IMG/VR virus record: IMGVR_UViG_3300034356_003581
Coordinates: 1-28,145 of that record
Reading direction: 5' to 3' (one strand)
From: a virus
Length of the DNA: 28,145 nucleotides
Part shown: one piece after another, positions 1-20,432 of the stretch
Position numbering within the stretch: the stretch's first letter is position 1
How the letters are laid out: each line of letters begins with the position of its first letter
Notes under the pieces: generated by a model
The model's database searches: none
What the model was told of the DNA's origin: nothing
What the model saw: the letters and a program-made list of their open reading frames with translations, nothing else
Made by a program: the position numbers and the translations under genes

Positions 1-1178
1 ACATATCCATTGCTCCAACGGATTTGACGGGGGTTACATCTACTGCTGCCGAATTAAATATTCTTGACGGCGCGACGCTTTCGACAACGGAACTCAACTA
101 TGTCGACGGAGTAACCTCTGCTATTCAGACACAGTTAAATGATAAGGCCCCACTTGCTTCACCAACCTTCACCGGAACGGTAGTTCTTCCAGACAACACA
201 GTTGCTCTTGGTGCAAAAACAACTGGAGATTACGTTTCGTCTCTCGTTGCTGGAACTGGCGTTACCCTTACCAACAACTCTGGAGAAACAGCAACTCCGA
301 CGGTCGCAATCGGCCAATCAGTAGCGACTTCTGCTTCGGTTACATTTGCAAAAGTTGACACCACCGGAGATTTAACCGTAGGTGGAAACCTAACGGTCAA
401 TGGCACCACGACAACACTAAACACAGAGACCCTCTCGATAGAGGACAACATTATTGTCCTTAACTCCAATGTGTCTGCATCACCATCGCTAAATGCTGGA
501 ATCGAAATCGAGCGTGGCACATCAACAAATGTATCGCTCCGCTGGAATGAAACAGATGACAAGTGGCAGTTCACCAATGATGGAAGCACATATGTAGATT
601 TTGGCGCTGGTGGCGCAACCATTTCTGAAACAGCACCGGCTAGCCCAACGGCTGGTCAAGTATGGTTTGAGTCAGACACCGCGCAAACCTTTGTTTACTA
701 CGATTCTCAATGGATTGAAATAGGCGCTTCAGGAATGGCTGCGGTTGTTTCGGACAGCGCGCCATCTTCGCCTATTACAGGTCAAATATGGTTTAACTCC
801 CTCAATGGCGGAACATACGTTTACTACAGTTCTGCATGGACTGAGGTGGGTGCAGTTCCCATCAACGCTCTTCTCAACACAATCAATGCCAAAGGCGACT
901 TGCTTGCAGGAACAGCCGACAATACTATTGGTCGTCTCGGAGTGGGCACAAACGGTTATTTTCTAAAGGCTGATTCTGCTGAAACGACAGGTTTGGTTTG
1001 GGCGGCTATACCAAGCGTTTCCATCCTTGATGACGTTGGTGATGTAACGATTACTTCTGCCGCATCAGGACAAGTATTACAATGGAACGGTAGCGCGTGG
1101 ATAAACGCAACAGTCAGTACTGATATTATGACTAGCAGTAAGAACGCAGCACTTTTAGTAATGGAAATAGGAGTCTAA
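1..1178 (+). CDS. Modular tail fibre protein, 5' end outside window
   Basis: Virion-exterior fibre. The frame is open to the left edge (first full codon at base 3), so the TTG at 24 is internal and the gene begins upstream. Visible modules, counted from the first codon: two TAAELN/TTELNYVDG repeats (about 13-38), typical of aquatic-phage fibres; a GDLTVGGNLTVNGTTTT beta segment (about 122-138); two copies of an SPTxGQxWF...YVYY..W.E.G module (about 207-243 and 253-285); a NAKGDLL...RLGVGT module (about 295-325); and a final SGQVLQWNGSAW element. The last two kinds recur in genes at 4268, 5121 and 6622, indicating module exchange. No enzymatic motif is seen. An AGGAG sequence at 1169-1173, inside its last codons, probably serves the next gene. 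Confident as a fibre; receptor and position on the virion are unknown. Confidence 0.85.
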   Translation, partial: ISIAPTDLTGVTSTAAELNILDGATLSTTELNYVDGVTSAIQTQLNDKAPLASPTFTGTVVLPDNTVALGAKTTGDYVSSLVAGTGVTLTNNSGETATPTVAIGQSVATSASVTFAKVDTTGDLTVGGNLTVNGTTTTLNTETLSIEDNIIVLNSNVSASPSLNAGIEIERGTSTNVSLRWNETDDKWQFTNDGSTYVDFGAGGATISETAPASPTAGQVWFESDTAQTFVYYDSQWIEIGASGMAAVVSDSAPSSPITGQIWFNSLNGGTYVYYSSAWTEVGAVPINALLNTINAKGDLLAGTADNTIGRLGVGTNGYFLKADSAETTGLVWAAIPSVSILDDVGDVTITSAASGQVLQWNGSAWINATVSTDIMTSSKNAALLVMEIGV

Positions 1179-1179
1179 A

Positions 1180-1515
1180 ATGGCATCAGGAGATAGAGCA
1201 GAAGCACGGATTTGTGCTCCAACCCAACTAGGCACTTCAACAACTACATTGGTGACGGTTCCTGCAGGACAAACATATATCTGTAAGCAGATTCTTATTT
1301 GCAATACGGACACGGTGGACCGCACGGTGACTTTGGCTATCGGTTCTGCAGCCACTGCTTCTAACCGTATTATTTCTGCATTGCCAATTGGGGCAAACGA
1401 CATCATCGTACTCGATACCGCTTTGTTGCTTCTGACCACGGAAACACTGCAAGGTTTGTCGGATGTCGCTTCCAAGGTAAATGTGACGATAGTCGGAATT
1501 GACAAGACCAACTAG
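1180..1515 (+). CDS. Small beta-rich virion protein, paralogue of the 6989-7351 gene
   Basis: A 111-residue protein with no recognised domain name. It is rich in Val, Thr and Ile in alternating patterns (TTTLVTVPAGQTY, then DRTVTLAIG, then VNVTIVGID), which suggests a beta-sandwich. It matches in layout the 120-residue product at 6989-7351: a central Asn-bearing strand, a TLAIG/TIEWG strand, a hydrophobic IIVLD/LVLVVPGLIL strand and a closing strand, so the two look like divergent copies. The ATG lies 2 nt after the stop of the fibre gene and 6 nt after GGAG at 1170-1173, so translation is probably coupled. Likely a tail-surface or fibre-associated decoration protein; this is inference from fold impression and neighbourhood. 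Confidence 0.7.
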   Translation: MASGDRAEARICAPTQLGTSTTTLVTVPAGQTYICKQILICNTDTVDRTVTLAIGSAATASNRIISALPIGANDIIVLDTALLLLTTETLQGLSDVASKVNVTIVGIDKTN

Positions 1516-1517
1516 TT

Positions 1518-2393
1518 ATGGGCATTGCCTCTAGTCTCGGCACCTATCGCTATAACCAATATGGCGTTGCTACTGGCGGAATAGGTTCTGCTATTTCAAC
1601 AACTGTTAATGGTGTGTCGTACAACTATTTGACTTTTACTTCTGATGGTACTTTGACCGTTACCAAGGCAGGGCTGTTTGACATTCTGGCTTTTGGCGGT
1701 GGAGGCGCAGGAGGTGATGGCGATGGCGGTTCCGGAGGGGGGCACGGTGGCGGTGGCGCTGGCGGAAGAGTGCAGTCAACAATTTATTTGTCTGCCAACC
1801 AGACTATAACTATCGGTGCTGGCGGTGCTGGCGGTGCATATAACTCAAACTTTGGTGGAGCAATGGGCGGTGACTCAGGCATAGGTGGTTTGATTGTTGC
1901 TGTTGGAGGTAGTGCTGGTACTCACGCTCCGGGTTCAACCCCTCTTGCTGGTTGGCTAGGGCGAACAGGTGGCTCTAATGGCGGTCAAGACGCATCCTAT
2001 GGAACTGTTGGTTATCAGCCAAGAACCAATGTTCTAGGTCAAGGAAATATCGGTGGCGACGGCTCGGGCGGCGGCGGTGGTGGCGGCGGTGGTGCAGGCG
2101 CTGTTGGTGCTACAGGTTCGTCTTCTGGAATCGGCGGCGCTGGTGGCGCTGGTGTCGATGTTTCAACTTTCATTGGCGGCTCTGCCTTGTTTAAGGCTGG
2201 AGGGGGCGGTGGTTCTGGAACTACAACGGGCGGTGCTGGTGGCAGCGGCGTTGGTGGTGCCGGAAGAAACGGCACGAACACCAGCGGTTTTAGCGCCTCA
2301 GCCAATACGGCTGGTGGCGGTGGTGCCTCTATCGGGCAAGCAACTGGTGGCAACGGTGGCAGCGGAATAGTTTATGTGAGGTTTAGGGTCTAA
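1518..2393 (+). CDS. Glycine-rich adhesin-like tail protein, one module, subtype A
   Basis: A 291-residue protein. Residues 1-55 form a short beta header (QYGVATGG...YNYLTFTSDGTLTVT), followed by FDILAFGGGG and about 220 residues dominated by Gly runs, with the strand STIYLSANQTITIG near residue 90 and the closing motif GGSGIVYVRFR. Such Gly-rich modules are common at phage fibre tips; the T2/S16 gp38 adhesins use polyglycine-II helices, and a similar receptor-binding role is inferred. The FDI-LAFGG entry and the IYLSANQT strand define subtype A, shared with both modules of the next gene. The ATG follows the previous stop by 2 nt with no clear Shine-Dalgarno. The last base of its TAA is the first base of the next ATG (TAATG). 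Confidence 0.85.
   Translation: MGIASSLGTYRYNQYGVATGGIGSAISTTVNGVSYNYLTFTSDGTLTVTKAGLFDILAFGGGGAGGDGDGGSGGGHGGGGAGGRVQSTIYLSANQTITIGAGGAGGAYNSNFGGAMGGDSGIGGLIVAVGGSAGTHAPGSTPLAGWLGRTGGSNGGQDASYGTVGYQPRTNVLGQGNIGGDGSGGGGGGGGGAGAVGATGSSSGIGGAGGAGVDVSTFIGGSALFKAGGGGGSGTTTGGAGGSGVGGAGRNGTNTSGFSASANTAGGGGASIGQATGGNGGSGIVYVRFRV
1621..1648 (+). repeat. 28-bp direct repeat, copy 1 (pair at 3327-3354)
   Basis: The 28 bases here, coding for part of the YNYLTFTSDG header, are identical to 3327-3354 in the header of the second module of the next gene. Flanking bases on both sides are similar but not identical, so this is the best-preserved core of a longer homologous segment and a likely point for recombination between adhesin modules. 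Confidence 0.85.
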
Positions 2394-4024
2394 TGGGTAT
2401 TTCAGGCGCACGACAAAAACGACTTGCAACCCAATACGGTATTGCTTCAGGCGGTACAGAAACGGATATAACCGTTTCAGGTGTTTCGTATAAGTTACAT
2501 ACCTTTACTTCCGATGGAAACTTTGTTGTTTCTACAGGTGGTTGGTTTGATTTATTTGCGGTTGGTGCAGGGGCAGCAGGAGGTGGAGGCAACGTTTCCT
2601 CAACTAACCAAAACGGTGGTGGTGGCGGTGGCGGAAGTGTTTTGCAAACAACAATCTATCTATCTCCAGCAACTTATGCGGTTGACATTGGTGCAGGTGG
2701 TGCGGCTGCAACTGATGATAACGGTGGTTCGGGATTTGCAACAACCATTGGAACAATTTATTATGCTGTTGGCGGTGGTGGAGGTGGTAGAGGAAACGGT
2801 GTGGCTGCAACTGGTGTTATTGCAGGTGGTGGAGGCAATAACAATAAAGCAGGCGCAACAACTACAGCGCCGAACATTGGTTTTTCAGGTGGTAATGGTG
2901 CGGCAGATGGTCCTACTGGTGGAGCAGGCGGTGGAGCAGGTTCGGGAGCCGCTGGTAGTAATGGTACGACATCAGTTGGCGGCGCTGCTGGTGCGGGTAT
3001 TTCCCCTTCAACCTTTACTGGCGGAACAGTAACTAACGGCGTTGGAGGCGGCGGTGGAGGTGCTAGGGGTAGCGGCAGCGGTGGTGCGGGTGCAGACGGC
3101 GGTGGAGCGGGCGCTTCAACAACGAACGGTAGTGGCACAGCAGGAACAGCAAATCGTGGCGGTGGAGGCGGTGGTTGTAATGGTTCAGGTTCGGCGGGCG
3201 CTGGCGGTTCGGGTGTTCTTTATATTCGCCGCCGTATTGAAGGTGATGCTCTTGCTACAACACAAGGTTATGGTGTTGCTACAGGTGGTACAGGACCTAC
3301 TTCAACAACTGTTGATGGTATTACATACAACTATTTGACTTTTACTTCTGATGGAACTTTGACGGTCACTACCCCAGGTTTTTTTGATTTCTTAATCCTT
3401 GCAGGTGGTGGTGGTGGCGGCCGTAGTGGGAATGTCAATCAAGCGTGTGGTGGTGGTGGCGGTGGTCGTTATTTGATAAGTAGCGTTTATTTGTCAGCAA
3501 ACCAAACCGTTACGGTTGGTGCTGGTGGTGCAGGTGCTACAGCAGACGGCAAAAACGGCAATCGTGGTGGCAATTCTAGTATTGGTAATTATGCAACTGT
3601 AGGTGGTGGTGCAGGTTCTTGGGTTTATACATCTGCTGGTGGTGGTGGTGAGTCAGGTCGGCAACTTGATGGTGGGTCGGGTGGTGGTGGTTCGCAAACG
3701 CAAGGTGAGTTTGGTTTGGCGATAATCGCTGGACATGGCACAACTGTTACTGCTGGTCTAAATGCTGGAGGCGCAGGTTACGGCGGCACTAATTCAGGTA
3801 CTACGGGCGGTGCTGGTTATGATGTGAGTGCTTTTATTGGTGGTTCAACACTCTATAAATGTGCTGGTGGTGCTGGTGTTGGGGGAACTGGTGGTTCAAG
3901 TGTGGGTGGCAATAGTGGAACTTCTGCTGCTGCGAATACGGCTTCAGGTGGTGGTGGCAATACAAGTGCAAACGCTGGTAGTGGCGGCTCAGGTATTGTC
4001 TATGTTAGATATAGAACAGCATAA
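2393..4024 (+). CDS. Glycine-rich adhesin-like tail protein, two tandem modules, subtype A
   Basis: A 543-residue protein made of two copies of the same design. Module 1 (about 1-280) has the header YKLHTFTSDGNFVV, then FDLFAVGAG, the strand TTIYLSPATYAVDIG, Gly-rich runs and the end motif GGSGVLYIRRR. Module 2 (about 281-543) restarts with QGYGVATGG and YNYLTFTSDGTLTVT, then FDFLILAGGGGGG, IYL-type SVYLSANQTVTVG, and ends GGSGIVYVRYR. Module 2 is closer to the single module of the preceding gene than to module 1: a 28-bp stretch is identical (1621-1648 and 3327-3354). This suggests duplication or recombination between neighbouring genes. It starts on the TAATG overlap with the upstream gene. 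Probable receptor-binding tip protein; the exact receptor cannot be read from sequence. Confidence 0.85.
   Translation: MGISGARQKRLATQYGIASGGTETDITVSGVSYKLHTFTSDGNFVVSTGGWFDLFAVGAGAAGGGGNVSSTNQNGGGGGGGSVLQTTIYLSPATYAVDIGAGGAAATDDNGGSGFATTIGTIYYAVGGGGGGRGNGVAATGVIAGGGGNNNKAGATTTAPNIGFSGGNGAADGPTGGAGGGAGSGAAGSNGTTSVGGAAGAGISPSTFTGGTVTNGVGGGGGGARGSGSGGAGADGGGAGASTTNGSGTAGTANRGGGGGGCNGSGSAGAGGSGVLYIRRRIEGDALATTQGYGVATGGTGPTSTTVDGITYNYLTFTSDGTLTVTTPGFFDFLILAGGGGGGRSGNVNQACGGGGGGRYLISSVYLSANQTVTVGAGGAGATADGKNGNRGGNSSIGNYATVGGGAGSWVYTSAGGGGESGRQLDGGSGGGGSQTQGEFGLAIIAGHGTTVTAGLNAGGAGYGGTNSGTTGGAGYDVSAFIGGSTLYKCAGGAGVGGTGGSSVGGNSGTSAAANTASGGGGNTSANAGSGGSGIVYVRYRTA
3327..3354 (+). repeat. 28-bp direct repeat, copy 2 (pair at 1621-1648)
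   Basis: Exact copy of 1621-1648, located in the header of the second glycine-rich module of the 543-residue protein. Recombination between the two copies would delete the first gene's glycine region and module 1, leaving a single fused in-frame gene. Confidence 0.85.
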
Positions 4025-4043
4025 GTAGTAAAATAGGAGATAT

Positions 4044-4268
4044 ATGAGCGCACAATATTTTGCACAACTAGATGAAAACAATGTGGTTACGCACGTAGCA
4101 GTTGTCATGCGCCAGTTCTTAGAAGCAAACCCCGACCGTTACCCGGGTCGCTGGGTGGAAACATTCTTTGATACTGAAGGTAAAACCTATGCTGGGGTTG
4201 GGTTTGTTTACGATGATGAAGCACAGGACTTTGCTGCTCCTGTCGCTCCAGAAGTAGGGCCTGAGTAA
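4044..4268 (+). CDS. Small tail-associated protein of a family common in cyanophage-like myoviruses
   Basis: A 74-residue acidic protein. It opens with FAQLDENNVVTHVAVV, continues with FLEANPD...WVETFFDT, then a Gly/Tyr stretch (KTYAGVGFVYDDE) and a DFAAP end. Small proteins with an 'xFAxLDENNxVxxVxVV ... W(I/V)xTxxxT ... YAGIGxxYD' layout are familiar from tail-fibre regions of aquatic myoviruses; they have no defined function as far as I know. The start is supported by AGGAG at 4035-4039, five bases before the ATG, one of the few clear ribosome binding sites in this run, after an 18-base gap. Its stop overlaps the ATG of the next gene (TAATG). A role as fibre connector or assembly factor is possible but unproven. 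Confidence 0.8.
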   Translation: MSAQYFAQLDENNVVTHVAVVMRQFLEANPDRYPGRWVETFFDTEGKTYAGVGFVYDDEAQDFAAPVAPEVGPE

Positions 4269-4918
4269 TGGGTGTTTCTGCGTTTTCTGGTGCTTCCTCG
4301 GTAATTAAGCCAGGTGTCGTGACGAGTTCGACTCGTCCTTCTTCGCCGTTTGTTGGTCAACTTATTTATGATACAACGGTGTCTCAGACTTTGGCATGGA
4401 ATGGTTCTGCTTGGGTCGTGCAAAGTCCTGGGATGGTTCTTGTTGCAGCACAGACGATTGGTTCAGCAGTTTCCAGCGTGACCGTATCAAGTGCGTTTAG
4501 TGCAGCTTATGACGCATACAAAATAGTTGTTACTGGCGGCGCAGGTTCAACAAATCAAACATTAACACTTACTTTAGGTTCAACCTCTACGGGGTATTAC
4601 GCTAGTTATTTTCGCACTACCAGTTTTTCTAATGCCGCTTACGACGGACAAATCTTAAACAATGGTTCTGGTTGGAGTGAGTCAGGTTACGGAACTACTA
4701 GCGGTTTAGGTATGAACATAGAATTACAAAGCCCGTTTTTGGCTAAAACAACAATTCTTGGCGGTGTTTACCAAAGAGGCAACACAACTGTCTTGGGTAT
4801 AGGAACTGTTAGCGGAATGTTAAACAACACTACAAGTTACACAGCATTTACAATTACGCCATCTAGTGGCACAATGACGGGTGGCACAGTTCGCGTTTAT
4901 GGATATGCAAACAGTTAG
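4268..4918 (+). CDS. Tail surface protein with GQxxY/W-SAW module and beta domain
   Basis: A 216-residue protein. Residues 15-55 carry the module SSPFVGQLIYDTTVSQT...WNGSAWV, also present in the fibre at 1-1178 and the protein at 5121. Residues about 57-216 form a Ser/Thr-rich beta domain with periodic strands (SSVTVSS, YKIVVTGG, QTLTLTLGST) and end in GTVRVYGYANS. The end, the YDAYKI(V) segment and the size of this domain recall the YGIK proteins at 7361-8948, so it may be a remote member of that family. It starts by TAATG overlap and sits directly before a coiled-coil gene and a glycine-rich gene, the same order as seen at 8430-10881. Likely host-recognition or baseplate decoration. Confidence 0.75.
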   Translation: MGVSAFSGASSVIKPGVVTSSTRPSSPFVGQLIYDTTVSQTLAWNGSAWVVQSPGMVLVAAQTIGSAVSSVTVSSAFSAAYDAYKIVVTGGAGSTNQTLTLTLGSTSTGYYASYFRTTSFSNAAYDGQILNNGSGWSESGYGTTSGLGMNIELQSPFLAKTTILGGVYQRGNTTVLGIGTVSGMLNNTTSYTAFTITPSSGTMTGGTVRVYGYANS

Positions 4919-4926
4919 GGCATGAC

Positions 4927-5121
4927 ATGACATACAAAATCCAAATCGACGATGAAGTGCGTGACGCAACCGAAGAAGAAGCAGCCGTCATTGACGCACA
5001 AAAAGCAGAAGCCGAAGCACTAGCGGAAGCCAAAGTTGCCAAAGCAACCGCAAGACAGGCTTTGTTAGAAAAATTGGGTATTACAGAAGAAGAAGCACAA
5101 CTGCTTCTTGGTGGTATCTAA
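4927..5121 (+). CDS. Small acidic coiled-coil protein preceding an adhesin gene
   Basis: A 64-residue protein: a short N-terminal strand (YKIQIDDEVRDAT), then a helix very rich in Glu, Ala and Lys (about 16-48), and a C-terminal LLEKLGITEEEAQLLLGG motif. The product at 8957-9181 has the same plan and an equivalent end (KLKALGLSDAEVEALVG). Both directly overlap a glycine-rich gene by one base (here TAATG at 5119-5123). Proteins of this type are frequent next to fibre genes in aquatic phages. A dedicated chaperone or a trimerising linker for the downstream adhesin is an attractive inference from position only. AGGG at 4917-4920 may be the ribosome binding site; the ATG at 4922 in another frame stops after two codons. 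Confidence 0.75.
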   Translation: MTYKIQIDDEVRDATEEEAAVIDAQKAEAEALAEAKVAKATARQALLEKLGITEEEAQLLLGGI

Positions 5122-6416
5122 TGGCATTCTCATTTCCTGCTTCCCCTGCTACCAACGACACCTACACCGTAGGTTCTCGTACATACACTTGGACGGGTTC
5201 TTTTTGGGAAATGACAGGCGGGTTAATCACAACAAGCCAATTAACAGATTTAGGTGTTACTGCAGCCAAGATTAATGATGCAGCCGTTACTACAGCCAAG
5301 ATTGACGACCTTGCTGTCACCGCTGCAAAGATTGCAGGCACAACTATTACAGAAGGAAAAATTGCATCGAATGCGGTTACGACAGGGAAAATTGCTTCAA
5401 ACGCTGTCACACAAGCAAAACTTGACTCAACTTTGAGCGGTGTCACTATCTGTACTTCATCAACAAAACCTGCTTCACCTTTCACGGGGCAAACTATCTT
5501 TGAGACTGATACAAATTTGATGAAAGTGTACTTATCTACTGGTTGGAGTAGTGGGACTTTACATGCTTCCACTATTACTGTTGAATACCTCGTGATTGCT
5601 GGCGGCGGCGGTGGCGCTGGCGGTGTGGGTGGTGGCGGCGGTGCAGGTGGATACCGTTCGTCTGTTAATGGGGAATCCAGCGGTGGTGGGGCATCAGCCG
5701 AATCCGCATTAAGTCTTTCAAGTGGGACATACACCGTTACGGTTGGTGCTGGTGGAACGAAAGAATCTCCAACCAACTCAAACACACAAACAAATGGTGC
5801 TAACTCTGTTTTTAGCACCATCACTTCCTTGGGTGGTGGTTTCAGCGGAGGTTACGCGCATGCGGCTGCAACTGGTGGTTCTGGCGGTGGCGGCTCCGAC
5901 GGCGAAACATCATATCTGGGTGCAGCAGGAACTTCTGGTCAGGGCTATGCGGGTGGCGCGGGTGGAAACAACGGAACCAATTTTGTCGGTGGTGGCGGCG
6001 GTGGCGCTGGTGGCGCAGGCGTATCAAACACCAATGGTACTGGTGGCCTGGGTGGCAACGGTGGCCTGGGTATTGCATCGTCAATAACTGGGACTTCGGT
6101 TAATCGTGGTGGTGGTGGTGGTGGTTTTGGCTACATCAACGGTGGCGGAGGCACTGGTGGAACGAGTGCTTTTGGTGGTGGAACTGGCGCAGTATTGACT
6201 GGTAATGGTTCTAATGCAACAGCAAACACAGGAGGAGGCGGAGGCGGTGGCGGTGCTGGAACGGCTATCGGTGGTGCGGGTGGTTCTGGCATTGTTATCG
6301 TCCGCTACCTAACAGAGGATGCAACTGGCAAAACTATTACTGGTGGAACTGAAACAACGTCTGGTTCGTACACAATTCGTACATTTACTGCATCAGGAAG
6401 TTTGGTAATTGCATAA
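5121..6416 (+). CDS. Fibre/adhesin: decapeptide-repeat stalk plus glycine-rich module, subtype B
   Basis: A 431-residue protein. Residues 1-34 are a small SPATNDTYTVG...YTWTGSFWE module like the one at 6416. Residues 41-100 are six decapeptides with Lys at exactly 50, 60, 70, 80, 90 and 100 (pattern xVTxAKIxxx), probably a trimeric stalk. Residues 112-145 are another SPFTGQ module. From about 152 (EYLVIAGGGGG) to 398 is a glycine-rich module with GGYRS, YTVTVGAGG and NSVFSTITSLGGG, ending GGSGIVIVRYL. This is subtype B, shared with 9181-10881. The last ~33 residues (TGKTITGG...YTIRTFTASGSLV) match the header that leads into the second module of the 9181 protein, but the protein stops there: an orphan header. 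TAATG at the start; TAATG at the end. Confidence 0.87.
   Translation: MAFSFPASPATNDTYTVGSRTYTWTGSFWEMTGGLITTSQLTDLGVTAAKINDAAVTTAKIDDLAVTAAKIAGTTITEGKIASNAVTTGKIASNAVTQAKLDSTLSGVTICTSSTKPASPFTGQTIFETDTNLMKVYLSTGWSSGTLHASTITVEYLVIAGGGGGAGGVGGGGGAGGYRSSVNGESSGGGASAESALSLSSGTYTVTVGAGGTKESPTNSNTQTNGANSVFSTITSLGGGFSGGYAHAAATGGSGGGGSDGETSYLGAAGTSGQGYAGGAGGNNGTNFVGGGGGGAGGAGVSNTNGTGGLGGNGGLGIASSITGTSVNRGGGGGGFGYINGGGGTGGTSAFGGGTGAVLTGNGSNATANTGGGGGGGGAGTAIGGAGGSGIVIVRYLTEDATGKTITGGTETTSGSYTIRTFTASGSLVIA
5241..5420 (+). repeat. Six 30-bp in-frame repeats encoding decapeptides
   Basis: Six consecutive 30-base units encode decapeptides with a fixed Ala/Gly-Lys-Ile/Leu at positions 9-10 and 1 of the next unit. 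DNA identity between units is partial, strongest in the GCCGTTAC/GCAAAGATT-like parts. The same peptide style occurs on the other strand in the fibre at 14196-14996 (residues 83-162), so both fibres probably use this stalk element. Confidence 0.8.
6108..6125 (+). repeat. (GGT)6 glycine-coding microsatellite
   Basis: Six perfect GGT units in frame within the glycine-rich module of the 431-residue adhesin. Gain or loss of a unit keeps the frame and changes only the length of the Gly run. Confidence 0.9.
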
Positions 6417-6622
6417 TGGCTGCTATAGATTTCCCTAACTCTCCGTCAACAAATGACACCTTCACAACTGCTGGCAAGACATGGTTGTATAATGGTGTGT
6501 CATGGACACTCGTAGGAGTATCTACGGCAGGTCCAGGCAATTCGTATAATCTAGACGGTGGCGTAGCGTCAACTGTTTACGGTGGTATCACCAATTTAGA
6601 CGGTGGAGGAGTAGCAGGCTGA
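6416..6622 (+). CDS. Small tail protein with W-NGxSW module and NLDGG end
   Basis: A 68-residue protein. Residues 4-33 (DFPNSPSTNDTFTTAG..W.YNGVSWTLV) match the N-terminal module of the 431-residue adhesin just upstream (SFPASPATNDTYTVG...WTGSFWEM), so it looks like a free-standing copy of that module. Residues 42-68 hold a repeat-like YNLDGG...VYGGITNLDGGG element, a motif often seen near the C-terminus of small phage tail proteins. One-base overlaps on both sides (TAATG at 6414, TGATG at 6620) argue that it is translated with its neighbours. Function unknown; possibly a fibre connector. Confidence 0.75.
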   Translation: MAAIDFPNSPSTNDTFTTAGKTWLYNGVSWTLVGVSTAGPGNSYNLDGGVASTVYGGITNLDGGGVAG

Positions 6623-6978
6623 TGGCGGTAAAAATCCAATTGCGTCGAGGACTTGCCTCTGAGTGGACCTCGGCTAACCCGACCCTCGCGGCAGGTGAAT
6701 TAGCCTTAGAGACAGATACAGCCAAATACAAAATAGGTGACGGCACAACCGCTTGGACAAGCCTCGCGTACTCATCTTTGCCATCAACGGCTATTAATGC
6801 ATCCACAGTTACCGCTAAAGGCGACCTTTTGGTTGCTACGGCAAGCGGAACCATTGCCCGTTTGGGCGTTGGAACAGCAGACCAAGCACTCGTCGTTGAT
6901 TCATCCACGGCAACTGGTGTAAAATGGGCAACACCTGCTTCCGGCGCGGATGTTCTACAAGTTCAAGTATTTTCCTAG
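6622..6978 (+). CDS. Short fibre protein with Mtd-N-like start
   Basis: A 118-residue protein. Residues 2-50 (VKIQLRRG...W...NPTLAAGELALETDT.KYKIGDGTTAWTSL) match the consensus of the domain found at the N-terminus of the Bordetella phage major tropism determinant and of many short fibres. Residues 58-107 carry the KGDLLVATASGTIARLGVGT...VKWATP module that also occurs in the fibre at the left edge. The protein ends soon after, so it lacks any long receptor-binding domain and may be a connector or a shortened fibre. It starts by TGATG overlap. No diversity-generating retroelement parts are seen nearby, so the Mtd likeness should not be read as evidence of one. Confidence 0.82.
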   Translation: MAVKIQLRRGLASEWTSANPTLAAGELALETDTAKYKIGDGTTAWTSLAYSSLPSTAINASTVTAKGDLLVATASGTIARLGVGTADQALVVDSSTATGVKWATPASGADVLQVQVFS

Positions 6979-6988
6979 GAGATAACAG

Positions 6989-7351
6989 ATGGCAACATTT
7001 AACAAAGCGAAACTGTCTGGTTCTACTGATGGCTTGGCTATCAAGGTTACGGGTACGGGCACTGGCTCGACTGTAACTGTTCATACTGCTGTTGCTGGTA
7101 CTACGGCAGGCGTGTTTGACGAGATTTGGTTGTATGCAAACAACACTTCTTCGTCGGCCGTGAAATTGACGATTGAGTGGGGCACTGCTACTGCGGCTGA
7201 TGGCAACATTGAGTTAACTATTGCTGGTGAGTCTGGTTTGGTTCTTGTTGTTCCTGGTTTGATTTTGCAGAACTCTAAGGTTGTGAAGGCTTTTGCTGGT
7301 ACGGCTGACGTTATTTTGCTTACCGGCTATGTCAATGCGATTACCGCATAG
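6989..7351 (+). CDS. Small beta-rich virion protein, paralogue of the 1180-1515 gene
   Basis: A 120-residue protein, beta-rich by composition (STVTVHTAVAG, VKLTIEWG, IELTIAGESGLVLVV). It has the same order of strand-like segments as the 111-residue product at 1180-1515, though identity is low, so I infer an old duplication. AGGAG at 6977-6981 lies seven bases before the ATG and supports this start; the gap to the previous gene is 10 bases. Codons are markedly T-rich (GCT, GGT, GTT), unlike the C-richer first fibre gene, suggesting a different recent origin. A tail-surface or decoration role is likely; no catalytic motif is seen. Confidence 0.72.
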   Translation: MATFNKAKLSGSTDGLAIKVTGTGTGSTVTVHTAVAGTTAGVFDEIWLYANNTSSSAVKLTIEWGTATAADGNIELTIAGESGLVLVVPGLILQNSKVVKAFAGTADVILLTGYVNAITA

Positions 7352-7360
7352 GCGGTAGTT

Positions 7361-7936
7361 GTGACTCTGCGTTACGATACCCGTTCTAGGGTTTCTACTT
7401 ATACACAGTCATGGGTGTCTAATGTTGACCCTGATTTTGGTGTGTTTGAATCTATTGCTACTAATATTGTTGGTGCTGGTGGTTCTGCTTCTTTTACATT
7501 TAGTGTTATTCCACAAACATACAAACATTTGCAACTGCGAATTGCTGCTGGTAACAGTTCATCTGCATATTTGTCTTTGGTTATGAACTCTGATACTGGT
7601 TCTAATTACGCTTTCCACCGTTTGAGTGGTGATGGTGCAACAGCAGATGCCAATGCTTCAACGAGCAGGGCAGACATGATTTTGACTGGTGCTGGTGGTA
7701 TGTCTACTGATGCAAACATTCGTGGGGGTTTTATAGTAGATATTTTGGATTATGCAAATACAAACAAATACAAAACTGTTCGTAGTTTGAATGGTAACGA
7801 TGCAAACGGTTCGGGTTCTATGAACTTGTCATCAAATGTTTGGTTGAGTACGGCAGCAATAACTAGTTTAACTTTGTCAAGTTCATCAAACTTCCGACAG
7901 TATTCACATTTTGCTTTGTACGGGATTAAGGGATAG
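7361..7936 (+). CDS. YGIK-family tail protein, copy 1
   Basis: A 191-residue protein and the first of three tandem paralogues. After a unique 27-residue N-terminal segment (TLRYDTRSRVSTYT...) comes the shared domain: FESIATNIVGAGGSASFTFS, an IPQTYKHLQLR strand, a polar middle with N-G-rich turns, a VWLSTAAITSLTLSSS strand and the end FALYGIKG. The fold is probably an all-beta jelly-roll-like or sandwich domain; this is inferred from the alternating pattern. Start is GTG, 9 bases after the previous stop, without a strong Shine-Dalgarno (GGCGG at 7351-7355 is weak). Likely a receptor-binding or tail decoration protein; I know of similar proteins in aquatic phages but no assigned function. Confidence 0.78.
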   Translation: MTLRYDTRSRVSTYTQSWVSNVDPDFGVFESIATNIVGAGGSASFTFSVIPQTYKHLQLRIAAGNSSSAYLSLVMNSDTGSNYAFHRLSGDGATADANASTSRADMILTGAGGMSTDANIRGGFIVDILDYANTNKYKTVRSLNGNDANGSGSMNLSSNVWLSTAAITSLTLSSSSNFRQYSHFALYGIKG

Positions 7937-8938
7937 TTATGGCTGTTTCAGCGTATGAACTAATAGCCACAACAACTGTTGCTACTGCTACAAGCGCAGT
8001 CAATTTTAGTTCCATCTCACAGGCATATACTGATTTGGTTGCCGTTGTAAAAGCAAACGATAGCAACGGTTATTTGTTGGTGCGTTTCAATTCGGATAGT
8101 TCATCTTTGTATAGCCGAACATACTTGTCGGGCAACGGCAGTTCCGCTAGTTCTGCAAGAGGGACTGGTGAAGCACAAGGATATACAACCGCAGGTACAA
8201 CAACAAACCTTTTAAATGTTGGCTTGCTAAACATTATGAATTATTCAAACACTACAACTTTCAAAACTTTTCTTGGTCGTGAAAACCTTCCTGCTTCTTC
8301 AGTTCAAGCAACCGTAGGTTTGTATCGTTCTACTTCAGCGATTTCTACTGTCTCGTTTTTGTCACCGTCTGCTACAGCAACTATTGCTATCGGTTCAACA
8401 TTTACTTTGTACGGGATTAAGGCTGCGTAATGGCTGCGTATAATTTGATTGGAACTACAACTGTCGGTTCGGGTGGTGCAGCAAGCATAGATTTTACTAG
8501 CATCCCTCAGACATACACAGACCTTGCGGTTGTTATGTCTGCAAGAATTGATGGTGGGACTATTTACGGCGATGTTCAAACATCGTTTAATTCCGACACA
8601 ACAGCAGCAAATTATTCTTGGAGAAATTTGACTGGTAACGGTGCGGCTACTTCATCAGAAACTAGTAGTTCTGGAAATGCTAGATATTGTTTGATGATGG
8701 CGGGGAGTGGTACTACGAGCAATACGTTTGGTAATGGGGTTTTGTATATTCCAAACTATGCAGGTTCAACATATAAATCTTTTTCTTCTGATTCATGTTC
8801 GGAAAATAATGCATCAACTTCATACCTTAGATTTTTTGCTAATTTATGGTCATCTACTTCGGCAATAACTTCAATATCATTTAGCGGAGTGGGTAACAAT
8901 TTCTTACAGTATTCATCAGCATCCCTGTACGGGATTAA
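7917..8938 (+). repeat. TGTACGGGATTAA, three copies at the ends of the YGIK genes
   Basis: The same 13 bases close each paralogue, at 7917-7929, 8408-8420 and 8926-8938, coding for L/LYGIK. Copies 1 and 2 match over 16 bases (TTTGTACGGGATTAAG). Conservation exceeds the rest of the genes, so it may act as a recombination anchor or simply encode a constrained C-terminal tetrapeptide. Confidence 0.85.
7939..8430 (+). CDS. YGIK-family tail protein, copy 2
   Basis: A 163-residue paralogue of its two neighbours. It reads YELIATTTVATATSAVNFSSIS, QAYTDLVAVVKAND, then a variable NG-rich middle, then LYRSTSAISTVSFLS and the end FTLYGIKAA. The ATG follows the previous stop by two bases. The stop (TAA, 8428-8430) shares its last A with the next ATG. 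Start and end of the domain are conserved among the copies while the middle third diverges, as expected for a binding face under diversifying selection. Function is inferred only. Confidence 0.8.
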   Translation: MAVSAYELIATTTVATATSAVNFSSISQAYTDLVAVVKANDSNGYLLVRFNSDSSSLYSRTYLSGNGSSASSARGTGEAQGYTTAGTTTNLLNVGLLNIMNYSNTTTFKTFLGRENLPASSVQATVGLYRSTSAISTVSFLSPSATATIAIGSTFTLYGIKAA

Positions 8939-8948
8939 AAACAGTTAG
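8430..8948 (+). CDS. YGIK-family tail protein, copy 3
   Basis: A 172-residue paralogue: YNLIGTTTVGSGGAASIDFTSIP, QTYTDLAVVMSARI, a middle segment distinct from the other copies, LWSSTSAITSISFSG, QYSSASLYGIKNS. The IPQTYTDL element is closest to copy 2 and the FLQYS element (near the end) is closest to copy 1 (FRQYS), which hints at recombination among copies. It is directly followed by a coiled-coil gene and a glycine-rich gene. Overlaps copy 2 by one base. Confidence 0.8.
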   Translation: MAAYNLIGTTTVGSGGAASIDFTSIPQTYTDLAVVMSARIDGGTIYGDVQTSFNSDTTAANYSWRNLTGNGAATSSETSSSGNARYCLMMAGSGTTSNTFGNGVLYIPNYAGSTYKSFSSDSCSENNASTSYLRFFANLWSSTSAITSISFSGVGNNFLQYSSASLYGIKNS

Positions 8949-8956
8949 GAAAAACT

Positions 8957-9181
8957 ATGGCAACAAAACTAGTAATCAATTGCACCACAGGCGAACAAAC
9001 CGAAGTGGAATTAACAGCAGAAGAAGTCGCACAACGAGAGGCTGACGCTGAAGCATTCGCTGAACAAGAGGCTTTGCGTTTGGCTGAAGTTGAGGCTAAA
9101 GCATCAGCAAAAGCATCTGCACAAGCAAAACTTAAGGCACTCGGTTTGTCCGATGCCGAGGTGGAGGCTTTGGTCGGCTGA
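8957..9181 (+). CDS. Small acidic coiled-coil protein preceding an adhesin gene, second copy
   Basis: A 74-residue protein with an N-terminal strand segment (TKLVINCTTGEQTEVELT), a long Ala/Glu-rich helix (about 21-60) and a C-terminal KLKALGLSDAEVEALVG. It has the same plan as the 64-residue product at 4927-5121. AGGA at 8947-8950 lies six bases before the ATG. Its TGA shares the A with the ATG of the double glycine-rich gene, repeating the arrangement at 5121. A role in folding, trimerising or attaching that adhesin is inferred from the recurring pairing. Confidence 0.77.
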   Translation: MATKLVINCTTGEQTEVELTAEEVAQREADAEAFAEQEALRLAEVEAKASAKASAQAKLKALGLSDAEVEALVG

Positions 9182-10881
9182 TGCGTGGTGGTAGAACTCG
9201 TCCTTCACAGTATGTGAATCAGAACCCTCGCTACAAGTTACAACAAACTTTTAGCGGTGGTGTTGAGTCGTACGTGTCTGTGGCTGGCGTGTTTTATAAG
9301 GTTCACACGTTTTCCGATACTGGTTCTTCAGCGTTGACTTCAAGGTCAAGTGGTCCTGGTTTGGATACTGAGTACCTAGTTATTGCAGGTGGCGCTGCTG
9401 GTGGTGGGAATAACGGCGGTGGCGGTGGAGGTGCTGGTGGCTACCGAACAAATGTTGTCGGTGCAACAACGGGCGGTGGCGGTTCTGCCGAAAGCGGACT
9501 ACAACTAACCGCTGGTTCCTACACGGTAACCGTTGGTGCGGGTGGCGCAGCGGTTGGCGCTGGAACAGATGGAAATAGCGGCTCCAATTCGGTTTTTGGT
9601 TCCATTACTTCTTTGGGCGGTGGAGGTGGTGGAGGTCAGGACGCTGTTTCTGGTGGTGGTTCTGGAGGTGGTGGTCAAGGTGGTTTTAGTGGTGGTGCTG
9701 CTTCTTCTTCTCCGACGCAAGGTTTTGCAGGTGGAAACGGAACTTCTGATGGTGCTAGTTATCGCAACGGTGGTGGTGGTGGTGGTGCTGGTGCTGTTGG
9801 TGGTTTAGCAACTACTGGCATCGGTACAACTGCTGGAGTTGGTGGCGCAGGTCGTTCTAGTTCTATTACTGGTACTGCCGTGACTCGCGGCGGCGGAGGT
9901 GGCGGCGGTTCTTTTTACGGCTACCTAGGTGCTGGTGGCACGGGTGGCGGTGGCGCTGGTTCGCAAAATGCTTCAACTGCTACTAGCGGTACGGCAAATA
10001 CTGGCGGTGGTGGCGGTGGTGGGGGTGAAAGTAATAGTGGTGCTGGCGGTTCGGGTGTGGTTATTTTCCGTTACCTCACAGCAGACGCAAATGCAAAAGG
10101 TTTGACTATTTCGGCTACAGGTGGTAGTTCAACTATTTCGGGTGTGTACACAGTTTGGTCATTTACGGCTACGGGTACGGTGACTGTTTCGGTTGCATCT
10201 CGCACGGTTGACGCAGAGTATTTGGTTGTCGCAGGTGGCGGAGGTGGAAGTCGTGGTGGTGGTGGAGCAGGTGGATACCGCACAGGAACACAATCACTTA
10301 CTGCTGGAAGTTCCTACACCGTAACCGTTGGTGCTGGCGGTGGTAATTACGCAAACGGTTCTGATTCTGTATTTTCTGGCATCACATCAACAGGTGGCGG
10401 TCGTGGTGGTGGCACTGGTGATGCTGGCGCGAACGGTGGTTCGGGTGGCGGTGCTGGTGGAGCGAACTTTGCTGACGGTCAAGTAAACGGTGGTATCTCT
10501 AGCCCTGTGACGAGTCCTGTGCAGGGTTTTCGTGGTGGCAATAGTAATTCGGGTGAAATAAACTCAAACAGTCCTGCTTGTGGTGGTGGTGGTTCTAGCG
10601 CTGTTGGTGGTCAGCGAGTAAGTACCACGGTGTCGGGTGCTGGCGGTGCTGGAACAGCAAACTCAATTTCGGGAAGTAGCGTCACTTACGCAGGTGGTGG
10701 CGGAGGCGGTATTTTTTCAGGCACAGGTGGCGCAGGTGGCGCAGGCGGTGGGGGTGCTGGTGCCGTTGGAACCGCAACAGGTGGAACAGTCAATACTGGT
10801 GGTGGCGGTGGGGGAAGCGGCGGTGCTACAGGTGCTTCTGGCGGTTCAGGAATAGTTATTATTAGATACCCAATCGGGTAA
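9181..10881 (+). CDS. Glycine-rich adhesin-like tail protein, two tandem modules, subtype B
   Basis: A 566-residue protein. A basic N-terminus (MRGGRTRPSQY...) precedes header 1 (FYKVHTFSDTGS). Module 1 starts at EYLVIAGGAAGGG, has GGYRTNVVG, YTVTVGAGG and NSVFGSITSLGGG, and ends GGSGVVIFRYL near residue 300. A linker with header 2 (STISGVYTVWSFTATGTVTV) leads into module 2 (EYLVVAGGGGGS, GGYRTG, YTVTVGAGGG, DSVFSGITSTGGG), which ends GGSGIVIIRYPIG at the C-terminus. Both modules are subtype B like the 431-residue adhesin. Starts by TGATG overlap with the coiled-coil gene. Contains an in-frame (GGT)6 at 9769-9786. Probable tip adhesin; receptor unknown. Confidence 0.86.
   Translation: MRGGRTRPSQYVNQNPRYKLQQTFSGGVESYVSVAGVFYKVHTFSDTGSSALTSRSSGPGLDTEYLVIAGGAAGGGNNGGGGGGAGGYRTNVVGATTGGGGSAESGLQLTAGSYTVTVGAGGAAVGAGTDGNSGSNSVFGSITSLGGGGGGGQDAVSGGGSGGGGQGGFSGGAASSSPTQGFAGGNGTSDGASYRNGGGGGGAGAVGGLATTGIGTTAGVGGAGRSSSITGTAVTRGGGGGGGSFYGYLGAGGTGGGGAGSQNASTATSGTANTGGGGGGGGESNSGAGGSGVVIFRYLTADANAKGLTISATGGSSTISGVYTVWSFTATGTVTVSVASRTVDAEYLVVAGGGGGSRGGGGAGGYRTGTQSLTAGSSYTVTVGAGGGNYANGSDSVFSGITSTGGGRGGGTGDAGANGGSGGGAGGANFADGQVNGGISSPVTSPVQGFRGGNSNSGEINSNSPACGGGGSSAVGGQRVSTTVSGAGGAGTANSISGSSVTYAGGGGGGIFSGTGGAGGAGGGGAGAVGTATGGTVNTGGGGGGSGGATGASGGSGIVIIRYPIG
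9769..9786 (+). repeat. (GGT)6 glycine-coding microsatellite
   Basis: Six perfect in-frame GGT units in module 1 of the 566-residue adhesin, comparable to the tract at 6108-6125. Confidence 0.9.
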
Positions 10882-10889: not shown

Positions 10890-11672
10890 ATGGTCAAAAT
10901 GGGCGATACAGAAGAATTGTATCCACAGGTAGTTGTTTATAAAAATGCTTTAAAAGAACCGGATGTCTTTTTAAAGGCAATTCTCCAAGATTCTTCGCAA
11001 GTAGAGAAGTGGGGAATGTGGTATTCACTCGGACGACAAACAATGATTAATGGATATAATCATTACATGGGCGACTCATTCCCCGAACCGCAACAATGGT
11101 CGCAGAGTCGCAATCAAAACGACAACTATGTAAGCACATCTGTAGCAGAGGCGTTCTACTCAAGCACCAAAGACTACGTAGAAAGATACCAAGTCGAGAT
11201 GCAGAACTGGAGCCATGGCGGACCAACCATAAACAGTCATACCGCGCACAGTGCGGATGGCAAACTTGCCATGCAGCACCACACCGATTTTATAATGTCG
11301 AAGTCCGAATGGCCAGGATTCAAGCATTGGCTTACCTGTAATATATATATTAACGACGACTACGAAGGCGGTGGCTTGTCCTTTAAGGTTTTCACCAGTG
11401 ACACAGAATATGACAAATTTTCATACAGCCCCAAAGCTGGGGACGCACTAGTTTTCCCGTCACACCACCCTTATTATCACGGTGTTAAAAAAACCCTGTC
11501 CGGCGAAAAGTTTTTTATACGAACATTTTGGGGCTACGAATATGAAGGAAGCGCAGAATGGAACAAGAACAAAGATTTATTTGGTGAAAAATGGATAGAG
11601 GCAGAAGAAGAAAGGTCGAAAAGCGAAAATAATTCAAGTAAATGGATGAAGGGTTACGTTGAGGAAGATTAA
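10890..11672 (+). CDS. 2-oxoglutarate/Fe(II)-dependent oxygenase-like protein 1
   Basis: A 260-residue protein of the prolyl-4-hydroxylase-like superfamily. The iron-binding triad is visible as His131-x-Asp133 (MQHHTDF) and His197 (YYHGVKK), and Arg211 (FFIRTFW) is placed to bind the 2-oxoglutarate carboxylate. The DDYEGGGLSF and KAGDALVFPS segments between them are typical of the double-stranded beta-helix core. Enzymes of this family hydroxylate protein, nucleic acid or small-molecule substrates; the substrate here is unknown. It is the last gene of the plus-strand run, 8 bases after the adhesin stop. A second in-frame ATG at 10899 is an alternative start; neither has a clear Shine-Dalgarno. 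Its stop shares TTAA with the stop of the opposing gene. Confidence 0.88.
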   Translation: MVKMGDTEELYPQVVVYKNALKEPDVFLKAILQDSSQVEKWGMWYSLGRQTMINGYNHYMGDSFPEPQQWSQSRNQNDNYVSTSVAEAFYSSTKDYVERYQVEMQNWSHGGPTINSHTAHSADGKLAMQHHTDFIMSKSEWPGFKHWLTCNIYINDDYEGGGLSFKVFTSDTEYDKFSYSPKAGDALVFPSHHPYYHGVKKTLSGEKFFIRTFWGYEYEGSAEWNKNKDLFGEKWIEAEEERSKSENNSSKWMKGYVEED

Positions 11673-12379
11673 GATTTATGGTAAAAATTAATTGGGTCAG
11701 GGTTTGAAGTATCCGCAAGACCAGTTTCGATATTTTCAAATACCATATTTTGGTCTCTTAAGCGCTTGACAGCTGGGTCAAAAGCAAATGTTGTAGATAT
11801 GTACCTTGTTGAAGGTGGCAAAACCGGCAGCGTGTAATGGGTGTACGAAGTTAGACCAGGGTGCAACAACAAATCCCCTTTTTCGGGCTTGTATGTTGTA
11901 CCTTTGTACTTGTACACAACCTCACCACCGTTGAAATCGTTGTGGTACAGGGCCATTCCAAACTGCACATAATTCGTTGTACCGTCTGTTCCGGATGGAT
12001 TGTCTGCATGTTCAAACATTGCCTCGCCGACCTGCATCCTATGAACCGTAATCAAACCACCAAATGTCCACTTTTCTTCCTGGCTGTCGTCAAAGAGCGC
12101 TCTTATGCGACCCATAATGTTTTGCACGTGAGGGTGCCTAGTGTTTTCATCACCAAGATAGAGAATCTTGTTGTTCCACCAAATTCGTTTATCTTTGTCC
12201 CACTCTTCAGGTGTGCCGCTTTCTGCTATTGACACATACCAATCGCGCTCTTCTTGGGTTGTGAAGTCTTTTATAACATGAACATTTTTCTCAACAAATT
12301 TGTAATTTGGGTGATTGAGAATGCCAGCAACTTGATAGATGGAGTCGTCATTTAGGTAATCGTTCGGGTTATTGTGCAT
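11669..12379 (-). CDS. 2-oxoglutarate/Fe(II)-dependent oxygenase-like protein 2
   Basis: A 236-residue protein. Triad His124-x-Asp126 (MFEHADN) and His181 (YTHYTLP), with Arg192 (TRYISTTF) for 2-oxoglutarate. The core segments NDFNGGEVVYKYKG and KPEKGDLLLHPG support the fold. An HVIKDF element at 34-39 is the usual N-terminal entry strand. It is not a close copy of the oxygenases on either side, so the three probably came separately or diverged long ago. The gap to the upstream gene is 20 bases. It has no convincing Shine-Dalgarno. Substrate unknown; protein or polysaccharide-linked hydroxylation is possible. Confidence 0.87.
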   Translation of the reverse strand: MHNNPNDYLNDDSIYQVAGILNHPNYKFVEKNVHVIKDFTTQEERDWYVSIAESGTPEEWDKDKRIWWNNKILYLGDENTRHPHVQNIMGRIRALFDDSQEEKWTFGGLITVHRMQVGEAMFEHADNPSGTDGTTNYVQFGMALYHNDFNGGEVVYKYKGTTYKPEKGDLLLHPGLTSYTHYTLPVLPPSTRYISTTFAFDPAVKRLRDQNMVFENIETGLADTSNPDPINFYHKS

Positions 12380-12399: not shown

Positions 12400-13128
12400 C
12401 TATGTTCCAGTTTCTTGGTAGAACTTTGGATTATGGAACTTGTCTGAGTAGTCGAGCATCGTTACGAGTGAATATTTTGTACCTTCCTCAACTGGAAGTG
12501 AGCGGTGTGGGTACATAAAATTTGACGGGAATACCATTAAATCTCCAGCGAGTGGTTTGATTTTCAGATTCCAAAGACGAAACTCCAGCTCTCCACCAAC
12601 AAAGTCGTCATTAGCATATGCCACCAGAGAGAGAGTGCAGTTGTAAGAATAACCGTGGTCAGAATGTTCGGCAAAATGTTGCCCTATACCGTATTTTACA
12701 AAATTGGTTGATTCCCAATATCGTAATTCTGAAATGTTGTAAGTTGCACAGTAATGCTTGACTGCTTGTAGCTGCCTAAAATATGTTTCATCATACATAG
12801 CAACAAGCAATTTTTCCTGTGGCGACGAACCTTTGGCAATATTCATTGATGTTTTGAATTTGAAATCATAACAATCTCTATATTCATTGTTTTTCATTTT
12901 ATAACCAACTAATGCTTCACCCCACGCAGCATTGTCTTCGTTTTTTAGTAAATAATCTTCAACTGTTGAAATGATATTTAATTCTTTTGGCAAAACATCG
13001 TGATATACGTGAATACCTGGAGCAACAATCTCAAATGAAGACCAAGTTTGTGCATCTATATTGCGCCACTCCTGCTGTCTTTTATCAAGCTCCATTTGTT
13101 CTGTGTTGGTCATTTTTGTTTCTACCAT
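12400..13128 (-). CDS. 2-oxoglutarate/Fe(II)-dependent oxygenase-like protein 3, Lys in the cosubstrate site
   Basis: A 242-residue protein. The triad is His155-x-Asp157 (AEHSDHGY) and His208 (YPHRSLPV). The usual 2-oxoglutarate Arg, ten residues further on, is replaced by Lys218 (GTKYSLVTML); Lys is used in some members of the superfamily, so activity is not excluded. NDDFVGGELEFR and LAGDLMVFPS are the core strands. The start ATG at 13126-13128 overlaps the TAG of the upstream Cys-rich gene (ATGGTAG), which suggests translational coupling; an in-frame ATG five codons later is an alternative. Same strand and run as oxygenase 2. Substrate unknown. Confidence 0.86.
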   Translation of the reverse strand: MVETKMTNTEQMELDKRQQEWRNIDAQTWSSFEIVAPGIHVYHDVLPKELNIISTVEDYLLKNEDNAAWGEALVGYKMKNNEYRDCYDFKFKTSMNIAKGSSPQEKLLVAMYDETYFRQLQAVKHYCATYNISELRYWESTNFVKYGIGQHFAEHSDHGYSYNCTLSLVAYANDDFVGGELEFRLWNLKIKPLAGDLMVFPSNFMYPHRSLPVEEGTKYSLVTMLDYSDKFHNPKFYQETGT

Positions 13129-16567: not shown

Positions 16568-16568
16568 G

Positions 16569-18017: not shown

Positions 18018-18325
18018 TACTGAACCTCGCCTTTTACCCTAAACGAAAACTCAACTTTCATTTCATTTCCATTACTGTTGATATTTGTATTGAGATTTGT
18101 TATTTGAACTTCTGGGACAAATCGCGCTGCGTTAAGCACAAATACACCCTTGTCAATTCCGCGGAAAGATGGGTCCAAAACTCCAAACCTTGGAGAAAAA
18201 ACGTGCGTTCTCGGCTCCGTCAGGATGGATATGGTTAGAAGTTGGGCGTAAAAGTCCTCGGTTCCATCCCTGTGCTTCTGGAATCCGCTTCTGTCGAACT
18301 TCACGGGGAACTTAATCATGTCCAT
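18017..18325 (-). CDS. gp25/gpW-like baseplate wedge protein
   Basis: A 102-residue protein fitting the gp25-like lysozyme-fold family (T4 gp25, P2 gpW), a structural wedge part without lysozyme activity. Recognisable are KFPVKFDRSGF..H, QLLTISILTEPRTHVFSPRFGVLDPSF, and the closing EMKVEFSFRVKGE strand. The EPR...P.FG.L motif is the family's signature near the centre. Size and position, just before J, are typical. Both ends overlap neighbours by one base (TAATG), so it is translated with the gpV-like and J genes. Confidence 0.87.
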   Translation of the reverse strand: MDMIKFPVKFDRSGFQKHRDGTEDFYAQLLTISILTEPRTHVFSPRFGVLDPSFRGIDKGVFVLNAARFVPEVQITNLNTNINSNGNEMKVEFSFRVKGEVQ

Positions 18326-18702
18326 TATGCGTTCTCCAATGCAGTGACTCTCTGATTCAGGGATATGATTTGATTCTGGAGACTCGTTATTGTTGCCAGA
18401 AGACTCTCAACGACCGTCTTTGATGCAAATACATCTGCTTTTATCTTCGAAGAACCAAAAACTATGAGGTCGGTAAAAAACTCATCAGAGAAAGTACACA
18501 TTACGATGTCGCCTTTTATCATCTTGTTCAGGGTTGTAACTCCAATGGGGACAACTGGGCCGAATGTGGCGCCGAGGGATTTCACGTTGACCGTTACCCT
18601 GCCTGATGCGTCGACATACGTGACTGTTCCATTGTAAAATTTCCCCGGTTTGAGGGGGTGTGATGAGCCTTTTTCTCTGTTTACAATATCCGGCGAAGCC
18701 AT
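18325..18702 (-). CDS. gpV/gp5-like OB-fold baseplate protein with coiled-coil end
   Basis: A 125-residue protein. Residues 20-85 (FYNGTVTYVDASGRVTVNVKSLG...GPVVPIGV....KGDIVMCTFSDE...DLIVFGS) have the strand pattern of the OB fold of P2 gpV/T4 gp5. The C-terminus, from about residue 92, is a heptad helix (VVESLLATITSLQNQIISLNQRVTALENA in part), likely a trimeric coiled coil. It lacks the beta-helix needle and the apex metal-binding motif, so it is either only the spike base or an unusually short spike. It lies between the hub and gp25-like genes, as gpV does. An 84-base gap precedes it; AAGG is the probable ribosome binding site. Confidence 0.7.
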   Translation of the reverse strand: MASPDIVNREKGSSHPLKPGKFYNGTVTYVDASGRVTVNVKSLGATFGPVVPIGVTTLNKMIKGDIVMCTFSDEFFTDLIVFGSSKIKADVFASKTVVESLLATITSLQNQIISLNQRVTALENA

Positions 18703-20427: not shown

Positions 20428-20432
20428 TGCCG

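Follow-up and report, generated by a model that had tools for sequence, protein, structure and literature searches.

Two gene clusters in a 28,145-nucleotide (nt) stretch of viral DNA (IMG/VR virus record IMGVR_UViG_3300034356_003581, positions 1 to 28,145; hereafter, the window) raise the question of which neighbour a very small protein serves. In both clusters, a gene for a Ser/Thr-rich beta protein, putatively a tail tip (hereafter, beta or tip), is followed by a gene for a small coiled-coil protein (CC) and then by one for a glycine-rich (Gly) adhesin. The preliminary description of the window read this arrangement as a twice-repeated transferable cassette for host recognition, in which the coiled coil may fold or attach the adhesin. 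Comparison of about 145 distinct CC loci points to a different partner. The conserved pair is the tip and the CC, with the glycine-rich gene as a neighbour, and the sequence comparisons make it likely that each CC is a minimal tail-fibre chaperone, or tip assembly protein, specific for the tip encoded just upstream.

Pairing of the coiled-coil protein with the upstream tip

The genes of both units, the tandem tips and the DNA segments discussed below are all on the plus strand. The open reading frames (ORFs) of unit A run from beta A (4268-4918) through CC-A (4927-5121) to Gly-A (5121-6416), and those of unit B from beta 3 (8430-8948) through CC-B (8957-9181) to Gly-B (9181-10881). Beta and CC are separated by 8 nt, and CC and the glycine-rich gene overlap by 1 nt, in both units; CC-A (64 amino acids) and CC-B (74 amino acids) both terminate with LGxxxxExxxLxG. 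The six genes, their order, the YG ends of the betas, the one-base overlap and the C-terminal motif are thus exactly as first described. The idea of a repeated cassette held for order and spacing but not for the units as copies of each other: beta A and the unit B beta show no significant similarity (E 5.5), CC-A and CC-B can be aligned over the C-terminal 16 residues only (E 0.039), and upstream of CC-B there are three tandem betas recognized by the betaB profile, namely beta 1 (7361-7936, terminating LYGIKG; E 4e-26), beta 2 (7939-8430, terminating LYGIKAA; E 5e-20) and beta 3 (E 1e-62). Origin of the two units by duplication is unsupported because BLAST finds no similarity between beta A and beta B. 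The Gly-A and Gly-B domains belong to one family (E 8e-6; PF21722).

Relatives of the CCs were collected from viral contigs with CC-B (best 80 of 193 relatives used) and CC-A (best 80 of 84 relatives used) as queries, and the combined searches yielded the loci analysed here. A scan of genome contigs found one locus (L168), in an Actinomycetota metagenome-assembled genome, and searches of phage isolates by megablast with 12.4 kb and by tblastn with both CCs gave nothing, possibly because low-complexity filtering masks the CCs. The protein that precedes the CC contains YG within its last 22 residues in 134 of the 143 distinct loci with enough upstream sequence, and after clustering at 70% identity a YG-ending tip is located upstream in 105 of 113.

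Furthermore, the type of the CC N-terminus matches the type of the tip C-terminus. CC-A (CC profile E 1.9e-22) belongs to the YKIQID class, all 45 members of which follow tips ending GGTIRVYG; accordingly classified is beta A (216 amino acids; betaA profile E 7e-37; relatives 47-80% identical), which terminates RVYGYANS and represents the C-terminal class 'GGT(I/V)RVYGYxNS'. CC-B belongs to the KLxxxCxTGE class, and such CCs follow tips ending LYGI in 64 of the 64 cases assignable to the two main tip classes, five others being preceded by an unclassified YG end or by an end without YG. Beta 3 (172 amino acids), which terminates SLYGIKNS, falls into the class 'LYGI(K/S)NS'. Tabulated at 70% clustering, CC class against tip class gives 36:0:0:45, that is, no crossed pairs in the sample. 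The distances between CC N-termini correlate with those between tip C-termini (Spearman 0.68, n=113), compared with 0.10 for the downstream gene and 0.11 for the C-terminus of the same CC; if linkage alone were at work, the two termini of so short a protein should be correlated no less closely than CC and tip. Among the 27 most diverse loci, the corresponding values for the CC N-terminus are 0.54 with the tip and 0.01 with the downstream gene. This class matching points to the upstream beta tip as the partner of the CC, so that beta A is the putative client of CC-A and beta 3 that of CC-B, which may serve betas 1 and 2 as well.

The two halves of the CC have evolved separately. The C-terminal motif is conserved at the protein level across phages with unrelated CC N-termini, third-position identity being low (0.46-0.48). 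Two further CC relatives carry the LGITEEEAQLL end behind other N-termini, XkdW-like in L140 (from 4836) and MLIPNGG... in L156 (from 4032), and both follow fibres that terminate with MEIGA, not YG. The combination seen in L140 suggests that there are several N-terminal modules and one C-terminal part. Modelled alone, CC-B (predicted local distance difference test score, pLDDT, 92.7) consists of a beta-hairpin (strands 3-7 and 14-18), a 41-residue helix (21-61) and a short helix (66-73), and CC-A likewise appears to be a hairpin-helix protein.

From pairing, class matching and this architecture, we infer a chaperone that binds the tip and trimerises. The beta-hairpin at the CC N-terminus would recognise a newly made lectin-like tip by its C-terminal domain. 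Self-association of the long helix, probably into a trimer, would align three tips with one another, and the bundle would be capped by the conserved LG(I/L)TxEExxLL end, after which the helper might either depart or remain as a cap.

Several observations weigh against this reading. Within the YKIQID class, tip and hairpin are weakly correlated (0.15, p about 0.13), and the signal is accordingly one between classes, not within that class; adjacency itself can produce part of the correlation; and, as the loci were retrieved with CC queries, the sample is biased to CC-bearing loci, many of them related. Two of the three betas of the array, betas 1 and 2, have no CC of their own. The window CCs have no match of weight in Pfam, PHROG, NCBIfam or PDB sequences, and comparison of the CC model with solved folds gave no meaningful match (Z at most 3.7). 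As a stand-in for complex prediction, a read-through fusion of tip and CC from the relative L002, where the two genes are in frame across a 9-nt gap, was modelled (mean pLDDT 87, tip all-beta). Confidence in the hairpin exceeded 90 when the CC was modelled alone but was lower in the fusion (blocks 78-83, linker 67), and the fusion model gave no interface evidence; because hairpin confidence was not raised, the prediction lends no support to docking of tip and hairpin. Natural fusions of CC and tip were found in none of the loci (no CC match in ORFs of more than 150 amino acids). Matches to ribosomal protein L9 among PDB sequences (E 0.11 and weaker) were taken as chance coiled-coil similarity.

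The same data could be explained by a CC that is no transient chaperone but stays in the virion for good and, as a trimeric coiled coil, connects the short tips to a fibre shaft in the manner of an adaptor or cap. A tip-matched N-terminus and a conserved C-terminus would also suit an adaptor that docks at a shared site; the B-type tips, of about 170 amino acids, have no obvious attachment domain, so that something must attach them; and some Tfa proteins remain on the virion (PMC9608196, PMC7289586). The A-type partners, however, bring their own varied N-terminal regions and should need no adaptor, yet they have a CC, and a single CC is found behind three array tips. We therefore regard a permanent adaptor as unlikely, though not negligible.

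Glycine-rich genes as neighbours of the pair

The proposal of a coiled coil that serves the downstream glycine-rich adhesin by folding or attaching it, with beta, CC and Gly forming a single transferable unit, draws on two identically spaced occurrences of this order in the window and on its retention in several close relatives, among them L001-L004, L006-L008 and L032. Both glycine-rich proteins match Gly_rich_2 (PF21722) above its cut-off of 24.3 bits, Gly-A with 39.3 bits (E 9.6e-10) and Gly-B with 119.8 bits (E 2.4e-34), and both match phrog_2295. Across the wider sample, however, the CC family is found mostly away from such genes, the distribution that was to count against the proposal: a glycine-rich gene directly follows the CC in 14 of 138 distinct loci, and in 12 of 113, 8 of 78 and 2 of 43 after clustering at 70, 60 and 50% identity, respectively. 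The genes that follow CCs include, besides many singletons, two large groups of 28 and 21 loci whose starts are termed lysin-like on sequence patterns alone. The 1-nt overlap is generic as well, given that 29 of the 38 clustered CCs that have it precede non-Gly genes.

Conversely, some glycine-rich genes do without a CC. Gly-A occurs without beta A or CC-A in the nearest relatives, L002 and L006, because the region corresponding to about 979-5092 of the window is replaced there, homology being regained at 5092; two other glycine-rich genes of the window (1518-2393 and 2393-4024, both PF21722) have no CC; and in phage ct2KA10 (L169) the same three-tip array closes with a CC that no glycine-rich gene follows. 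Together with the near absence of correlation between CC N-terminus and downstream gene reported above, these observations make a helper of the adhesin very improbable. What survives of the original proposal is the folding helper, as the best reading of the CC; its client shifts to the upstream tip, and the transferable unit no longer ends in a glycine-rich gene.

Probable exchange of tips between conserved junctions

The supposed client of the CC is the most variable part of the cluster. In L002 and L006, the genes that start at 6416, 6622 and 6989 of the window are 92-99% identical at the amino-acid level and CC-B is 93 and 88% identical, compared with 43-58% for the three tips; in most syntenic relatives, identity is 51-58% for beta 1 and 43-52% for beta 2. 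A scan with beta 3 as query gave no relative, presumably owing to the high variability of its core. Along seven syntenic loci, DNA identity follows a sawtooth, with 0.76-0.91 at gene junctions, at least 0.73 over CC-B and 0.33-0.46 at the lowest points in tip cores. The conserved blocks cover the beta 1/beta 2 junction (7889-7948; mean pairwise identity 0.78), the beta 2/beta 3 junction (8429-8488; 0.81) and the beta 3 C-terminus with the spacer and CC-B (8909-9208; 0.73-0.91). A similar profile was obtained for 35 tip-CC pairs from other contigs, in which identity at third codon positions is 0.75 where the tip begins, drops to 0.40-0.60 over its core and reaches about 0.8 across tip end, spacer and CC start. 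The segment in which the window differs from L164 (4422-5089) comprises the beta A core and most of CC-A: DNA homology ends at 4422 inside beta A and is back at 5089, and the CC N-terminus reads MTIPQIRIIDGD where CC-A of the window has MTYKIQIDD, so that tip core and CC N-terminus differ together.

The betas thus appear to be a hypervariable array of lectin-like tips with DNA-conserved junctions, and homologous recombination at these junctions is the simplest reading of the exchange pattern, although junction conservation may also result from constraint on RNA or translation signals. An Rfam search detected no RNA family anywhere in the window. The view of the locus as a host-recognition gene cluster whose parts are exchanged between phages is supported. 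Alternatively, the CC start might owe its conservation chiefly to tip exchange across it, serving as a recombination anchor in the DNA or as a translational coupler and having little function as protein. This reading agrees with the raised third-position identity from tip end to CC start relative to the tip core and with the sawtooth at every array junction, but is scarcely credible given that the C-terminal motif is kept in the protein behind unrelated N-termini at low third-position identity, that distinct N-terminal classes match tip classes and that the predicted CC fold is stable.

If the CC is instead a chaperone, the tip and its matched CC hairpin would be inherited as a single exchange unit with a recombination boundary inside the CC gene, and the CC C-terminus and the following gene, be it a glycine-rich adhesin, a lysin-like gene or another, would belong to the recipient genome. 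We tentatively extend this to an array of adhesin cartridges, to which we give somewhat less than an even chance: three tandem lectin-like tips, each exchangeable between DNA-conserved junction blocks, with the N-terminal half of a mini-chaperone of split evolution travelling with the last tip. A new tip would then automatically arrive with its matching folding module, and the recipient phage would keep the constant half of the chaperone. Such split inheritance, if true, would show where phages of this type cut and paste host-recognition parts with assembly unbroken.

Fold comparisons with the L002 tip model bear on its name. Matches in a viral library include fibre proteins (lambda Stf-type, collagen-repeat), and among solved structures the best match is the C-terminal domain of GH32 (Z 7.6), followed by galectins and legume lectins (Z 5.8-6.3) and the lambda gpJ tip (Z 5.9), levels that are common by chance. 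As these matches are middling, 'lectin-like' names the predicted fold and not the function, plausible as a lectin role of the tip may be. The tip fold is also matched across 172 columns by a BFVD protein of 455 amino acids annotated as glycine-rich (A0A6J5Q1Y0), so a tip and a glycine-rich domain may on occasion be joined in one protein.

The surroundings of the array contain several other genes. The window begins with a fibre-like protein terminating LLVMEIGV (3-1178) and a 111-amino-acid phrog_1276 protein (1180-1515). The gene order of L169, namely a fibre-like ORF, a 108-amino-acid protein, two glycine-rich genes and three tips, resembles that of the window, which has an extra segment (4044-7351) between the second glycine-rich gene and the tip array. 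At 4044-4268 lies a gene for a small protein of the phrog_14370 type (MSAQYFAQLDENNVV...); L169 and certain other loci encode a similar protein directly behind a CC. The 118-amino-acid product of 6622-6978 contains the N-terminal domain of the major tropism determinant (PF18454, E 4e-15), with no receptor-binding domain matched. Behind the adhesin cluster, there are three consecutive genes for 2-oxoglutarate (2OG)-Fe(II) oxygenase-like proteins (10890-11672, plus strand; 11669-12379 and 12400-13128, minus strand) that match PF13640, the middle one under the cut-off. Convergent with the cluster, minus-strand tail genes occupy 15041-27003 and include matches to a minor tail protein (15041-16567) and a tail assembly chaperone (26458-27003) as well as an ORF of 1416 amino acids (21971-26221).

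Comparison with known chaperones and adhesins

Small tail-fibre chaperones encoded beside their fibres have already been described, one of them for the glycine-rich fibre of a lake cyanophage (PMC9608196, PMC7289586, PMC10579305). In the latter, the myocyanophage Pam3, the non-conserved N-terminal domain of the chaperone gp25 binds the tip of the fibre gp24 and the conserved helical domain trimerises (PMC9608196), so that the CC resembles gp25 in combining a variable, fibre-binding N-terminus with a conserved helical C-terminus. There is no sequence match between the two, and gp25 is larger (about 162 amino acids, with a five-stranded beta-sandwich and four helices) than the CCs (62-77 amino acids, with one hairpin and two helices); in addition, tip and glycine-rich part are separate genes here, and the CC tracks the tip. 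In the Alteromonas phages V22 (gp26/gp27) and A5 (gp8/gp9), a fibre and its cognate chaperone encoded directly downstream similarly form one module common to distant phages, but these chaperones have 195-240 amino acids and a helical body with beta extensions (PMC7289586, PMC10579305). Tfa of phages Mu and lambda is likewise encoded directly behind the fibre and is modular in its N- and C-terminal architecture; it is much larger, and the CCs do not match Tfa models. The L140 relative, which follows a fibre-type gene, is the link to XkdW (PF09636; E 0.0056, 16.8 bits, under the cut-off of 24.6), to which the window CCs have no match. As for the adhesins, Gly-A and Gly-B are like the glycine-rich receptor-binding lattice proteins of the Salmonella phage S16 gp38 type in composition, their matches being to PF21722 and phrog_2295.

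The CC therefore shares with these chaperones the position immediately downstream of a fibre or tip gene and the division into a variable, tip-matched N-terminus and a conserved helical C-terminus; where those have a multi-stranded N-terminal beta-sandwich of about 55 residues or more, about 18 residues form a two-stranded hairpin in the CC-B model. Because no sequence family holds the CCs and their N-terminal domain is much smaller, we do not claim membership in the Pam3 gp25/Tfa kind; by analogy, the CC may work like gp25 or Tfa without detectable homology. A candidate pair from a cultured phage is that of Pelagibacter phage HTVC019P (L170:14533-15554), where gp44 (54 amino acids, MTKIILNLQTNELTKVSLTSEEE...) is encoded directly behind gp43, annotated as a tail fiber protein. 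Detected by fold (E 0.19, probability 0.99), assigned by length and position and then inspected in sequence, gp44 is CC-like but without the LGITEEE end. Should the chaperone reading hold, an unannotated family of 60-75 residues that is common in uncultured viral contigs would gain a function and a named client, a YG-ending protein followed by a hairpin-helix protein would become a simple marker for receptor-binding tips in uncultured phages, and gp43/gp44 of HTVC019P would offer a test case of the pairing in a cultured phage.

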